Made by a program: the position numbers and the translations under genes. Below, piece after piece: positions 3,260 through 30,250 of a stretch of DNA of 30,655 nt. The DNA comes from a virus, in IMG/VR virus record IMGVR_UViG_3300048672_000788, positions 1-30,655 of that record; one strand, 5' to 3'. The notes under the pieces were generated by a model, which ran no database searches, was not told the origin of the DNA, and saw only the letters and a program-made list of their open reading frames with translations. Each line of letters opens with the position of its first letter. Position 1 is the stretch's first letter.

Positions 3260-3311
3260 AATAATATGAAACTAGAATACCGGACCCTATTATTTGGATG
3301 TGGTGAATAGC

Positions 3312-3584
3312 ATGGAAGAAAATAAGCGTATTTCGGTCGAGAGATCTTCCCGACCCGACATTGAAGAATTCATTTCCACGGTAGAAATGGCTAAAATCAT
3401 CGGAGTAACGCGAGATACGTTACTGAAATACACATATATTGTAACGCGTGGTGATCGCAGTAATCCACAGTGGAAATCACTACGGGACATGCCGCTACCA
3501 AGGAAGAATTATAGAACGCTGGAGTGGGATTGGCTCCTTGTCGAGGAATGGCACCTGAACCGGAGAAACAAGCGGAAGCGATGA
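3312..3584 (+). CDS. Small MerR/excisionase-like helix-turn-helix protein, 90 aa
   Basis: Residues about 24-75 fit the short winged-helix type used by phage excisionases and AlpA-like regulators. ISTVEMAKIIGVTRDTLLKY is the helix-turn-helix, followed by a wing region and a second conserved-looking stretch, MPLPRKNYRTLEWDWLLVEEWH, where the 'W...VEEWL' pattern is typical. Such proteins bind DNA as regulators or bend it for recombinases. No integrase is visible in the genome, so a regulatory role is more likely. I chose ATG 3312; a TTG six codons upstream (3294) is an alternative. Confidence 0.65.
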   Translation: MEENKRISVERSSRPDIEEFISTVEMAKIIGVTRDTLLKYTYIVTRGDRSNPQWKSLRDMPLPRKNYRTLEWDWLLVEEWHLNRRNKRKR

Positions 3585-3598
3585 GGGGCACTCATACG

Positions 3599-3772
3599 TC
3601 AGATCATCGACGACCAGCGTGACATCCGGATAGAATCTGGGATAACCATGTCCTGGTCGACCGGCTGAAGCGGATACGACATCAATTCGGATAGCTGATC
3701 AGAAGTCATCCGGGCAAGGGCGGCACGAAGTGCCCCGGACAGCTGATAGGTGATGGTGTACATATCGTCCAT
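3599..3772 (-). CDS. Small hypothetical protein, 57 aa, opposite strand
   Basis: A 57-codon frame begins at ATG 3772 with GGAG six bases upstream and ends with TGA at 3599, converging with the gene that ends at 3584. The product (start MDDMYTITYQLSGALRAALA) has a short strand and then an amphipathic helix, and resembles the many small early proteins of such phages. I do not recognise it. It is the only leftward gene within the rightward block. A good ribosome site and dense coding of the gap are the reasons for calling it. Confidence 0.5.
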   Translation of the reverse strand: MDDMYTITYQLSGALRAALARMTSDQLSELMSYPLQPVDQDMVIPDSIRMSRWSSMI

Positions 3773-3859
3773 GTCTACTCCAGAGTCAAATCCGTATCAC
3801 GATACTAACTGATCGAGCGGAAGACGGCCCGAGCTATGACATGGCGGACTGAAACTGAC

Positions 3860-3903
3860 ACAGCTGGTGTCCATCACCGATCCAGGTGATGGACACCAGC
3901 TGT
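3860..3903. repeat. 19-bp perfect inverted repeat, 6-nt loop
   Basis: The arms at 3860-3878 and 3885-3903 are exact reverse complements of 19 bases around loop gatcca. As RNA it would be a very stable hairpin. It lies immediately beside the CRISPR-repeat-like element. Read leftward it is followed by GTCAGTTTCAG, a weak U-containing tail, so it could end a small leftward RNA; it could also be an operator. Confidence 0.85.
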
Positions 3904-3908
3904 ATGAG

Positions 3909-3937
3909 GCTATCCCCGCGCGTGCGGGGACGTGCCG
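3909..3937 (+). CRISPR. Solitary type I-E CRISPR-repeat-like unit (no array)
   Basis: The 29-base segment has the type I-E repeat layout. It has a 7-bp stem tccccgc/gcgggga around a 4-base loop, with four bases before the stem and an eight-base tail ending in CCG, like the 5' handle of Escherichia coli-type crRNAs. Compared with the E. coli I-E repeat, the stem core TCCCCGCGC..GCGGGGA and the final CCG agree. Read on the other strand (3906-3934), the stem is followed by GGGGATA, which also resembles I-E repeats, so orientation is not settled. There is only one copy and no cas gene. A plain GC-rich hairpin is the alternative. Confidence 0.5.
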
Positions 3938-3989
3938 GGACCGGTTTCAACCCGCCGGAGATCCTGGAGAGCTGTTTTCCGCCGGAATC

Positions 3990-4018
3990 TTGTCCCCAGA
4001 CACATTCCATGCTAGATT
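3990..4018 (+). promoter_or_regulatory. Candidate promoter for the 4064 gene
   Basis: TTGTCC (3990-3995) and TAGATT (4013-4018) are separated by 17 bases and would start transcription about 40 bases before the ATG at 4064. The match to the -35/-10 consensus is good. It lies downstream of the CRISPR-like unit, so it would not transcribe that unit. Confidence 0.5.
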
Positions 4019-4063
4019 TGGTCTTGTCAGAGAGGCACACGAACCTCACGATCGGACATACAC

Positions 4064-4711
4064 ATGATACCGACCATGGTCCAGCTCCTCCCACTCTCAT
4101 CCACGAACTGCCCACGCGAGGAATGGGAGGAGTGGCAGGACGACATGATCACCCTGATCGGTGACTACCTCACCGATCCGGATCTCTCACCACATATGAG
4201 AAGCGTCCTGACCCAGCTATGGACTGGACAGTACGTCGACCGATCCATGGCGATCGAGTGCGCATCATCCATGAGTCAAAACTTGGCATACGGCCTGATC
4301 GATGGATTAGCGGATGTCATCGGCGGATCAGTTCAGTATCACCACGATCATAAAACCGAGCTGATGTACATCCGGGATACTCGTATCCTTACCAGGATCA
4401 AGAGAAATCAACACGATATGTTTTCAGATTATATGGACATTGAAGACGTATCCGTGTACGTAGAGGAAGGAGACCACCCGGATGAGGACAGGTACCGCGT
4501 GGTGATCCGGGTGGATGGTCATGTACGGTCGATCCGGGAGCATGGCGCTCCGTGGGGTCAGCCGTGGACGGCGCGCGAGGATGAAGATGGTATCCGGTTC
4601 GTGAGCTACCAGGTGACCCGTGAGGTTCTGCACCGGTGGGAGAAGGATGCGATCGAGGCGGACCGCAAAATTGATGAGCACGAGGAATACATGCATATGC
4701 ATTCCGAGTGA
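4064..4711 (+). CDS. Hypothetical protein, 215 aa
   Basis: I do not recognise this protein. It is acidic, with a helical N-terminal half (EEWEEWQDDMITLIGDYL, a helical segment near SVLTQLW) and a beta-rich centre with an alternating pattern (VSVYVEEG, RYRVVIRVDGHVRSI, IRFVSYQVTREVL). It ends in a charged helix rich in E, H and M. CGGA seven bases before ATG 4064 supports the start; ATG 4076 is possible. A promoter-like pair lies upstream and a hairpin follows the stop, so it may be a single-gene transcript. The setting beside a possible CRISPR-mimic RNA makes an anti-defence role worth testing, but nothing in the protein shows it. Confidence 0.65.
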   Translation: MIPTMVQLLPLSSTNCPREEWEEWQDDMITLIGDYLTDPDLSPHMRSVLTQLWTGQYVDRSMAIECASSMSQNLAYGLIDGLADVIGGSVQYHHDHKTELMYIRDTRILTRIKRNQHDMFSDYMDIEDVSVYVEEGDHPDEDRYRVVIRVDGHVRSIREHGAPWGQPWTAREDEDGIRFVSYQVTREVLHRWEKDAIEADRKIDEHEEYMHMHSE

Positions 4712-5483: not shown

Positions 5484-5948
5484 TCATGTAGCCTCATACG
5501 AAATCATCGCCTTGATCTCGTCAGACGATGCCCAGGTGAACGGGGACGTCGCACTGATCCCCGTCTGTGCCTCCACAAGTCGCAGGAACACCATCACCGA
5601 ACCCGACAAGGCGACAAGCCCTTGATAATTCGATGTTGCCGAAGAATCTCGGTACCACGCTTTTCCACCTATCTGGGTATTCGATGCGATCGGTACCGGG
5701 AGCGTGGCGTTCCCTGCCGAACCTACCGATGACGTCGAGCCGAGGACCAGGGAATATCTGGCCGTCACGAACCTGCCGATCTGTAGGTACGCACAGGACA
5801 GCGTACCGTTCCCGACGGTAATGTTCGTGAATGTTGGAGTGAAATCCGTCCACGCGACATCCTCAAGAGCAGAAATATCCGATGCAAGAACCGGATCACC
5901 GGCATAAACCATGTCTGACCTCAAATCGAATAGTGGGACGTTTCCCAT
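5484..5948 (-). CDS. Tail-tip fibre or receptor-binding minor tail protein, 154 aa
   Basis: The protein has the signature of small siphovirus tail-end proteins: an N-terminal helix, then a beta-rich body with WTDFTPTFTNITVGNGTL, YLQIGRFVTARYSLVLGSTS, LPVPIASNT and an ending like PFTWASSDEIKAMISYEA. In related phages such modules sit at the end of minor tail proteins or as separate genes after them and help the virion meet the host surface. It overlaps the large minor tail gene by 28 bases and is the last gene before the terminator. Receptor binding is inferred from position and family style. Confidence 0.75.
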   Translation of the reverse strand: MGNVPLFDLRSDMVYAGDPVLASDISALEDVAWTDFTPTFTNITVGNGTLSCAYLQIGRFVTARYSLVLGSTSSVGSAGNATLPVPIASNTQIGGKAWYRDSSATSNYQGLVALSGSVMVFLRLVEAQTGISATSPFTWASSDEIKAMISYEAT

Positions 5949-28250: not shown

Positions 28251-28949
28251 TCAAAGCATAGCACATTCGATCGGCCACGTGTTGTCGATCCCCCTGGAAC
28301 CCGCCTGCTCCCGGTACCATCCCACCTGGAGATCGTGCAGATCGGCGGACGAACAGTCCCCGATCACCACGCCCATCGCGTACGCGATGCGTGCGGCTAG
28401 CGTGGCGTCTCCGAACGCCGTGTGGAGACGGACATCGTCGGTACGCATTCCGTGTGACGCGGCGACACGTCTCAGGGATCGCCACGACAGACCATGAAGG
28501 TAAGCATCGATGACCATAGGGTCGAATACCGGCCAGACGTCGCGCACGATATCGCCACCAAAGCGGCCCCGGTCCGACCAGCATTCCACAGCGGTACGAC
28601 AGATGATGCTCAGGTCGAAAACAGCGTTGAAAGCGACAATCGGGGTATCCGATCCAAAGATTCTTTTGGAAATGACGATCTGATCCCAAATTTCTATGGC
28701 GGCCTCATGATCCGGAATGCTCCCCGCCACCATCTGATCATCGATCCCGTGGATGGCCGTCGCGTCCGACGGGATGGGCATCCCGGGATCGATGAGCCAG
28801 TCTCGTCCCCAGATCTGCCTCATCCCGGACGATGTGTGCTCGGCATGGATGATGCTGACGGAGACCATCCTGTCAGTGTGGATGTCGGTCCCGGTCGTCT
28901 CGATATCGATGGCGATGATCGGTCGCTGTGCCCAGGTGGTCATTCTCAT
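28251..28949 (-). CDS. DnaQ-like 3'-5' exonuclease, 232 aa
   Basis: The DEDD exonuclease motifs are visible. ExoI is AIDIETTG (Asp15 and Glu17), ExoII is AFNAVFDLS with an Asp, and ExoIII is HTAFGDATLAAR with the DEDDh-type His and Asp. It may trim DNA ends or support replication and recombination with the neighbouring ATPase. The start at 28949 overlaps the stop of the initiator gene by ATGA; ATG 28943, two codons on, is also possible. The size fits the family. Confidence 0.88.
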   Translation of the reverse strand: MRMTTWAQRPIIAIDIETTGTDIHTDRMVSVSIIHAEHTSSGMRQIWGRDWLIDPGMPIPSDATAIHGIDDQMVAGSIPDHEAAIEIWDQIVISKRIFGSDTPIVAFNAVFDLSIICRTAVECWSDRGRFGGDIVRDVWPVFDPMVIDAYLHGLSWRSLRRVAASHGMRTDDVRLHTAFGDATLAARIAYAMGVVIGDCSSADLHDLQVGWYREQAGSRGIDNTWPIECAML

Positions 28950-30193
28950 GTCTCCGTGTGTGTGTGGATGGGGCGCTGGATTGCCGTGGCTAGCCGCCTG
29001 GTCTCCTGTGCGGCTCTGGTGGCGCGTGCGCGTGCGCGTGCCTCGACCATCGTCTGCCGCGCTCTCCTGGCGGCTTCCTGGGCTCTACCGGTTTCCTGGT
29101 CGAGTCTTGCGGCTCTGTTGCAGGTGGCGCAGATGGGCACGGCGGGCTCGGTGGGATGGATCGGGCAGGATGCCCGGACCGGGTCAGCACGGTGATGGGT
29201 GGTGATGGTGTCCGGTGGATGGTCGGGGAGCTGCGACAGCGTGATGGTGACCAGTCCGACTCCTGCGCCGGTCCATGGGCGCAGAGATGCCCATGTGGTG
29301 ATGTGGACCGGCGTCCAGCCGTGGGTTGCCAGTCGGTTGAGTTCTTTGCGTGCCGTGGTGGAGCAGTCGGAGGTGATGGGGCCGCGTGGGGTGCGCATGG
29401 ATGCGCGTGTGGAGATCGGTAGGTGCTGGTCCAGTGCTGATGCGAGATCGTCGACGCTCACCGCGGTGTCCGATTTTTGTGGTTTGTGAGAATCTTCCTC
29501 CTCCTGGTGTGCCGTTGGGGCGTCCTGGTGAGGAGACTCCAGAACAAGATCAAAAGCAGGAGGAGGAGGATCTTGACCTTCATGATCAAGATCAAGGGCG
29601 CGATCAGGATCAAGGTCAATACGTGGTTGGCTCCCAGCCCCTAAGTACTTAATGCCTGAAAATCCGTCTTCGGTCCGACCTGCATGTTCTTCCAGATCCG
29701 TCACCCCGGGGGGCTTCCGGGCGTCAGATCCCGGTCCACCGACGTCAAGAAATCCGTCTTCGGTCCGACCTGCATATTTGTCATCATCCCGAAGGATTCC
29801 GGACTCACCGATGCCTGAAAACCCGTCATCGGTCTGACCAGGAACAACATGAATTTCGTCTAGAAGATCTGGATCGTCAGATATGTGCCACTCCGTGATC
29901 CAATGTCCATGTTCGTCCTGACGCCGGATACGACGTAGGTACCCGCATGTCTCCAGCATCCCCAGGGCCGTCCGGATCGCGTCACGACCCTCACCCCTGG
30001 GACGTCCCAGAGCCAGGCGCTCAGCGGACGTCACCGATCCAGCAGGGGCCGACAGCACGTACAGAAGCACACCTGCCGCACGGTACGACAGGCGCTGATC
30101 CTGAGCGGCACGGCGGCTCAGTGACACGATCAGATCCCCTAGTGATCGGGACCTGACGACTGGAACCTGGTCGGAAACTAGATCAGACGTCAT
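28946..30193 (-). CDS. Replication initiator-like winged-helix protein, 415 aa
   Basis: Residues about 17-110 form a winged helix (RLSYRAAGVLLYVLS, DAIRTALGMLETCGYLRRI, WITEWHISDD), as in phage and plasmid initiators. Residues about 110-245 are an acidic, repetitive linker in which AGRTEDGF-like units recur three times; the DNA under it carries iteron-like repeats. The C-terminal part has a helical domain (TARKELNRLATHGW) and a cysteine cluster, CPIHPTEPAVPICATC, that may bind zinc. It ends in an arginine- and alanine-rich helix (ARARARATRAAQETRR). An initiator with its own origin inside the gene would resemble lambda O. AGGAAGAG before ATG 30193 supports the start. Confidence 0.75.
   Translation of the reverse strand: MTSDLVSDQVPVVRSRSLGDLIVSLSRRAAQDQRLSYRAAGVLLYVLSAPAGSVTSAERLALGRPRGEGRDAIRTALGMLETCGYLRRIRRQDEHGHWITEWHISDDPDLLDEIHVVPGQTDDGFSGIGESGILRDDDKYAGRTEDGFLDVGGPGSDARKPPGVTDLEEHAGRTEDGFSGIKYLGAGSQPRIDLDPDRALDLDHEGQDPPPPAFDLVLESPHQDAPTAHQEEEDSHKPQKSDTAVSVDDLASALDQHLPISTRASMRTPRGPITSDCSTTARKELNRLATHGWTPVHITTWASLRPWTGAGVGLVTITLSQLPDHPPDTITTHHRADPVRASCPIHPTEPAVPICATCNRAARLDQETGRAQEAARRARQTMVEARARARATRAAQETRRLATAIQRPIHTHTET
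29652..29839. repeat. Iteron-like direct repeats inside the initiator gene
   Basis: A 26-base sequence is identical at 29660-29685 and 29750-29775. A third diverged copy occupies 29811-29839, and its first 29 bases differ from 29652-29680 at three positions. Spacings are about 90 and 69 bases. In protein the copies read as AGRTEDGF repeats. Repeats in the middle of the initiator gene are where lambda-like phages place the origin. Confidence 0.7.
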
Positions 30194-30250
30194 GTAGACT
30201 CTTCCTCTTCCAGAGATACAAGTTCATACCCGGGACCACCACACCGGGAC

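Follow-up and report, generated by a model that had tools for sequence, protein, structure and literature searches.

A solitary type I-E CRISPR-repeat mimic in a phage genome, probably a decoy against host CRISPR immunity or the remains of one

A single 29-base unit resembling a type I-E CRISPR repeat is present in a phage genome of 30,655 bases (IMG/VR record IMGVR_UViG_3300048672_000788, the whole of which is called the window hereafter), and it is a real element and not a product of chance. This lone repeat is probably a stolen CRISPR part that serves as a decoy against the CRISPR immunity of the host, or the remains of one. Judging from its sequence and from that of its kin, there is an even chance that this phage-borne type I-E repeat mimic is the single-unit member of an actinophage family and acts as a Racr-like RNA decoy for the Cas6e and Cas7e proteins of the host.

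Results

On its minus strand the window encodes terminase, portal, protease, capsid, tape-measure and tail proteins. Small genes at its left end are read from the plus strand. No close DNA relative was found in the phage collection, and close relatives of the portal protein and of the 215-aa protein neighbouring the repeat were absent from IMG/VR. The nearest named kin by protein similarity are phages of Streptomyces and Thermobifida, so that the host is likely an actinobacterium. Searches by repeat pattern and by terminase in a sample of 396 Actinomycetota genomes yielded no clear host, and tandem ATAGYC arrays considered in GTDB as host pointers were found in three unrelated genomes and gave no host candidate. 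The features of the repeat locus are listed in Table 1.

Table 1. Coordinates, strands and supporting analyses of the features at and around the solitary repeat unit.
Feature	Position	Strand	Basis or remark
Lone type I-E CRISPR-repeat mimic	3909..3937	-	Canonical minus-strand reading CACGTCCCCGCACGCGCGGGGATAGCCTC
Perfect 7-bp stem with 4-nt loop, expected site of Cas6e binding/cleavage	3913..3930		Folding, Markov expectation
Perfect 19-bp hairpin with 6-nt loop	3860..3903 (arms 3860-3878/3885-3903)	-	Fold z-score -7.3
Upstream (putative leader/promoter) side of the unit	3938..4063	-	Sequence reading and inference
Putative small helix-turn-helix protein, oriented toward the locus	3294..3584	+	Helix-turn-helix recognized by eye, no Pfam match
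57-codon open frame bounding the non-coding gap	3599..3772	-	Sequence reading and inference
Acidic orphan protein of 215 aa, divergent neighbour	4064..4711	+	No Pfam, PHROG or PADLOC match

As the sequence-only reading had described, the unit is located in a non-coding gap (3773-4063) between divergent frames, alongside a perfect 19-bp hairpin. Its plus-strand letters are GCTATCCCCGCGCGTGCGGGGACGTGCCG, with CCG at the 3' end, and its stem (TCCCCGC/GCGGGGA) is paired over 7 bp without mismatch. The 29-mer folds as a separate hairpin, with the 19-bp hairpin 5 nt downstream of it on the minus strand, and translation of the open reading frames that overlap it gives IPARAG/SPRVRG, an artefact characteristic of I-E repeats read as protein. 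The pattern TCCCCGCNNNNGCGGGGA has one match in the window, without mismatches, at the unit itself, and none other at two mismatches or fewer; in a shuffle control, one match at two mismatches was reached in 15 of 100 shuffles. The unit is also solitary in its surroundings, with no further full or partial repeat within 100 bp and no second repeat, even degenerate, in the interval 3580-4120, including the 61-nt register. Core cas genes were not detected among the 33 window proteins scanned (23 with PADLOC and 10 with PHROGs), the only matches of the cas scan being a DnaQ-like DEDDh exonuclease, of a kind ordinary in phages, and a small 'Unk_01' protein. The earlier claim that neither an array nor cas genes accompany the unit is supported by these scans.

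No T-run follows either hairpin on either strand (3580-4120), so that neither of them qualifies as an intrinsic terminator, and the 19-bp hairpin is likely an end-of-transcript structure that lacks a T-run. Sigma-70-like promoters were not found on the minus strand of the same interval, and actinobacterial promoters often match the consensus poorly. A preceding 32-nt spacer would occupy positions 3938-3969; when the flanks of the unit were searched for spacer targets no clear match was obtained, and hence no spacer against a related virus. At the gathering threshold Rfam gave no match, and the sub-threshold matches (Scr3202, a microRNA) were discarded, as they only reflect the long hairpin.

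The better repeat-like reading of the 29-mer, as judged by alignment, is that of the minus strand, and the plus-strand reading adopted in the sequence-only reading was therefore revised: 23-24 of the 29 positions agree with repeat type B of the sister contig G001 (described below) on the minus strand versus 16-18 of 29 on the plus strand. In this orientation the 19-nt stem-loop TCCCCGCACGCGCGGGGAT is identical, at 19 of 19 positions, to that of the plasmid-array repeat of Streptomyces jietaisiensis (CTGCTCCCCGCACGCGCGGGGATGGTCCC). Over its full length the unit agrees with this repeat at 23 of 29 positions (79%), the best match found in a comparison set of a handful of arrays; a solitary repeat unit is expected to match a known host repeat with a high score over at least 90% of its length, and the 85% identity to a host repeat that had been proposed earlier as support was not reached within this set. 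A plasmid array of S. anulatus, which runs in the same direction as its cas operon, reads GTCG-stem-GTAGCTCC, a form common to the minus-strand 29-mer. The genuine I-E repeats compared agree with the minus-strand unit at 19-23 of 29 positions and with one another at 18-27 of 29, so that the unit falls inside the spread of the I-E family itself. Among the plasmid-borne I-E repeats of Streptomyces with the same stem and handle pattern (NZ_CP108327, NZ_CP107824 and NZ_CP109086), the ACGC loop of the unit is identical in NZ_CP108327 and NZ_CP109086 and its TAGC handle is common with NZ_CP107824. Unlike the window unit, these plasmid repeats sit in long near-identical arrays, with cas genes adjoining that of NZ_CP107824.

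The best terminase match to the window in IMG/VR (58% identical) was found in contig 3300026372_000001 (G001), which is collinear with the window from window position 5484 to 30193 (25 kb). Eight perfect copies of the core, all of them in type I-E repeats, are present in G001 at 29793-30211 (L092:13293-13711), in the same variable interval that holds the window unit, between genes matching window 28946-30193 and 5484-5948. It is very unlikely, from the comparison of both sequences, that a common motif would occur in the same interval by chance. Read on the minus strand, the repeats are of two types, GTGTTCCCCGCGCCTGCGGGGATAGCCCC (n=3) and GTCGTCCCCGCCCACGCGGGGATAGYCC-like (n=5), spaced by 61, 49, 61, 61, 37, 60 and 61 bases; the stop codon of a minus-strand frame of 101 aa directly precedes the array, and a strong hairpin lies 3' of the last repeat. 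No core cas genes were found among the G001 proteins scanned. An assembly artefact is in principle possible, and against it stand the fit of the repeats to the window unit and the phage genes at both flanks. G001 also has a gene with a helix-turn-helix-like C-terminus on the corresponding side of the array, with no significant BLAST similarity between its product and the putative helix-turn-helix protein of the window. The spacers of G001 are 8, 20 and 31-32 nt long; the two short lengths fall 12 and 24 nt below 32, both multiples of the 6-nt Cas7 step, a pattern that may be a coincidence.

One of these spacers, s7 (GTCACGTGGCGCGAACACGTCACGACCGAGAG), encodes VTWREHV-, a terminase motif. It matches the terminase gene of G001 itself at 29 of 32 positions, with ATG beside the 5' end, and that of the window at 24 of 32, with CTG in that place; ATG is an accepted I-E PAM in Escherichia coli. 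No exact target was found in IMG/VR, where no phage other than G001 itself holds a target at that similarity. The spacer points to targeting, and not to a pure decoy, as a putative function of the G001 array. The remaining G001 spacers gave no clear target, and a Gordonia match to spacer s3 was judged to be due to chance, being gapped and extending into the repeat.

These data bear on the main rival explanation of the window unit, namely that it is the remnant of a virus-borne mini-CRISPR array, in which the repeats and spacers of an ancestor used the host Cas proteins against competitors and from which one repeat, now perhaps inert, has been left. Such an origin, which we regard as possible but doubtful, would account for the eight-repeat array of the collinear sister phage and for the terminase match of s7, and a stretch of 16 nt adjoining the window unit is similar to spacer s6 of G001 (12 of 16 positions by eye; BLAST alignment of 3909-3950 with 29857-29898). 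However, this resemblance is weak, no second repeat is found at the 61-nt register, and the stem has been kept perfect while its surroundings diverged, which would be surprising in an inert relic. The mini-arrays of the archaeal viruses SPV1 and SPV2 have mismatches at the carrier's own copy of the target (PMC6858448). They have in common with G001 the lack of detected cas genes, a spacer directed at a gene of a related phage and a mismatched own copy, but they consist of one or two spacers between identical repeats, whereas G001 has eight repeats of two types with irregular spacing. The window unit differs from them in having neither a second repeat nor a proven spacer: in a mini-array a spacer is enclosed by two repeats or more, and the window has one repeat and G001 eight. 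The decoy and the mini-array remnant may be stages of one history.

When the G001 array was searched against named phages, with a follow-up search, eight isolated phages of Streptomyces sanglieri (Piccadilly, Ignacio, Vondra, Cumberbatch, Eastland, HFrancette, Eklok and AxeJC) were found to carry a cluster of I-E repeats, and all eight hold a homologue of the 917-aa tail (minor-tail) protein of the window. The cluster comprises six heterogeneous repeats within a single non-coding gap of 365 bp flanked by two plus-strand genes (34555-34919 in Piccadilly, OL455886.1, L127), spaced by 61, 60, 58, 49 and 51 bases. The stems are identical and the six loops differ (GGTT/GGTC, AGAC, GCAT/ACAT, CGAT, GCAC, GTGA); the handles (ATGGCCCC, GTGGTCCT, ATGGCCCG, GTGGTCCC and two decayed ones) resemble the Streptomyces handle ATGGTCCC. 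No further I-E repeats were found in Piccadilly outside the gap (37.5 kb), cas genes were neither annotated nor detected in these phages, and Piccadilly carries the serine integrase of a temperate phage. A true CRISPR array keeps its repeats alike. The cluster, unlike such an array, has kept the stems and left the rest free to vary, and so it fits selection for a Cas6 hairpin; the divergence among the gaps of these phages (about 1%) is too low for selection on the stems to be tested. Two such units, 50 bases apart, are also present in Samy, a phage of S. ambofaciens (OR263580.1, about 59590-59664). Together with the G001 array, the clusters of the Streptomyces phages support the earlier proposal of a I-E repeat mimic in an actinophage.

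The entry MT835722.1 (L124, 'Bacteriophage sp.') was rejected as a phage: it appears to be a type I-E locus of a bacterium, with cas genes (by reading of its open frames) and at least 25 repeats (counted by script), and it is probably mislabelled. A viral contig of 437 kb (L098, IMGVR_UViG_3300021978_000001) has three unlike I-E repeats with spacings of 58 and 113, one of them with a ATAGCCCC handle.

Discussion

The unit could also be explained as a coincidental G+C-rich hairpin, a terminator or operator that happens to resemble a I-E repeat, which is unlikely. Stems of the form CCCCGC-N4-GCGGGG do serve as terminators, as in the FV3-type E. coli phages (Vequintavirus FV3), which were discarded as mimic carriers because theirs is an ordinary terminator hairpin. 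A few unrelated viral contigs also have single matches to the 18-19-base versions of the pattern; apart from G001 and L098, the IMG/VR contigs with such matches show isolated hairpins only, and those in L096, L097/L100/L101 and L108-L110 were rejected as background, with no array and, where tested, no similarity to the window. Nevertheless, perfect TCCCCGC-N4-GCGGGGA cores are expected only about 0.0007 times per window under a first-order Markov model, as against the one observed, and only one other perfect 6-bp stem of G and C with a 4-nt loop is present in the window. In 1.06 Mb of related phage DNA (92 loci) the 16-nt core is confined to the G001 array, whose eight repeats, mostly 60-61 nt apart, belong to the nearest relative, and the absence of a T-run on both sides also argues against a terminator.

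It is very improbable that the repeat is a landing site, at which homology to host arrays or Cas1-Cas2 integration would lead to spacer gain or recombination with those arrays, as proposed for viral single repeats in literature cited in PMC10651486: the two repeat types and the 8-32-nt spacers of G001 are consistent with recombination between arrays, but neither an integrase nor a tyrosine recombinase was noticed among the window genes and no host array with the flanks of the unit was found.

The RNA decoy is favoured because RacrIF1 needs its stem-loop and not its handle, because type I-E Racrs are active, and because an RNA read from the minus strand would present the exact hairpin of a Streptomyces repeat, a substrate that the Cas6e belonging to that repeat is expected to cleave. 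RacrIF1 depends on its stem-loop and not on its 5' handle, and Cas6f and Cas7f are captured by the cleavage product that lies upstream of the Cas6 site; RacrIE1 and RacrIE2 are proven to be active (PMC10651486). In the proposed mechanism, an accessory locus, multi-unit in the relatives, would produce during infection a short minus-strand RNA consisting of leader, repeat and strong hairpin; the host Cas6e would bind and cut its stem-loop, and the cut product would hold Cas6e and Cas7e in dead-end subcomplexes, diminishing interference as described for RacrIF1. Single and divergent repeats fit this decoy better than a working array. Against the decoy are the best repeat identity of only 79% over 29 nt, the lack of a recognized minus-strand promoter, the match of the G001 spacer s7 to a phage terminase, and the fact that no known acr gene was identified beside the 29-mer. 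The sequence-only reading had also held that relatives keeping the stem but not the bases of the handle would speak against a decoy, which proved too strict, since RacrIF1 tolerates changes of the 5' handle but not of the stem-loop (PMC10651486).

The window unit has in common with the Racr or solitary repeat units (RacrIE1, RacrIE2 and RacrIF1; PMC10651486) that it is a single, intergenic, phage-encoded unit without cas genes and with an intact Cas6 stem-loop, of type I-E as in the first two. It differs from them in that no repeat of at least 85% identity was found among the arrays compared and in the 19-bp hairpin alongside, and the relatives of the window phage carry clusters. Solitary repeat units and mini-arrays were already known, and the window unit adds a member; the exact 29-mer was absent from IMG/VR and from GTDB contigs. 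The dissimilar I-E repeats that occur clustered in related actinophages may represent a variant that has escaped notice, because SRUFinder discards by design repeats that lie within 100 bp of each other (PMC10651486); Streptomyces is not mentioned in the main text of that paper.

On this basis it may be proposed, tentatively, that actinophages carry polyvalent RNA anti-CRISPR loci, whose clustered I-E repeats keep the stem unchanged but differ in loop and handle, often with short 'spacers' (8-22 and not 32 nt) between them; one transcript of such a locus would supply decoys for the differing Cas6e/Cascade of many hosts, and the window would then hold a single-unit form and G001 a two-type form with an added anti-competitor spacer. 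The window unit adds a little-studied group of actinophages to the known range of CRISPR-repeat mimicry, and the eight isolated S. sanglieri phages, each with six divergent I-E repeats and no spacer with a known target, are relatives that can be handled in the laboratory. These loci raise two questions: whether phages have evolved RNA decoys of several specificities, directed at the Cas6e variants within a host genus, and by what route a mini-array directed against rivals is converted into a solitary anti-CRISPR unit or vice versa.

The orphan proteins that adjoin the repeat mimic (4064-4711, plus strand) and the G001 array (L092:13727-14032, minus strand) are anti-CRISPR candidates by position, because Racr units often adjoin acr genes.

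Two further observations concern the window as a whole. A 178-aa protein encoded at 645-1181 on the plus strand matches the PADLOC model 'Unk_01' (E 1e-17), a small protein sometimes fused to CARF domains, and a link with type III CRISPR signalling is possible. The tetranucleotide GATC occurs 403 times in the window (1-30655), about 3.5-fold the mononucleotide expectation of 117, with the highest density at the left end, and 238 times in G001.
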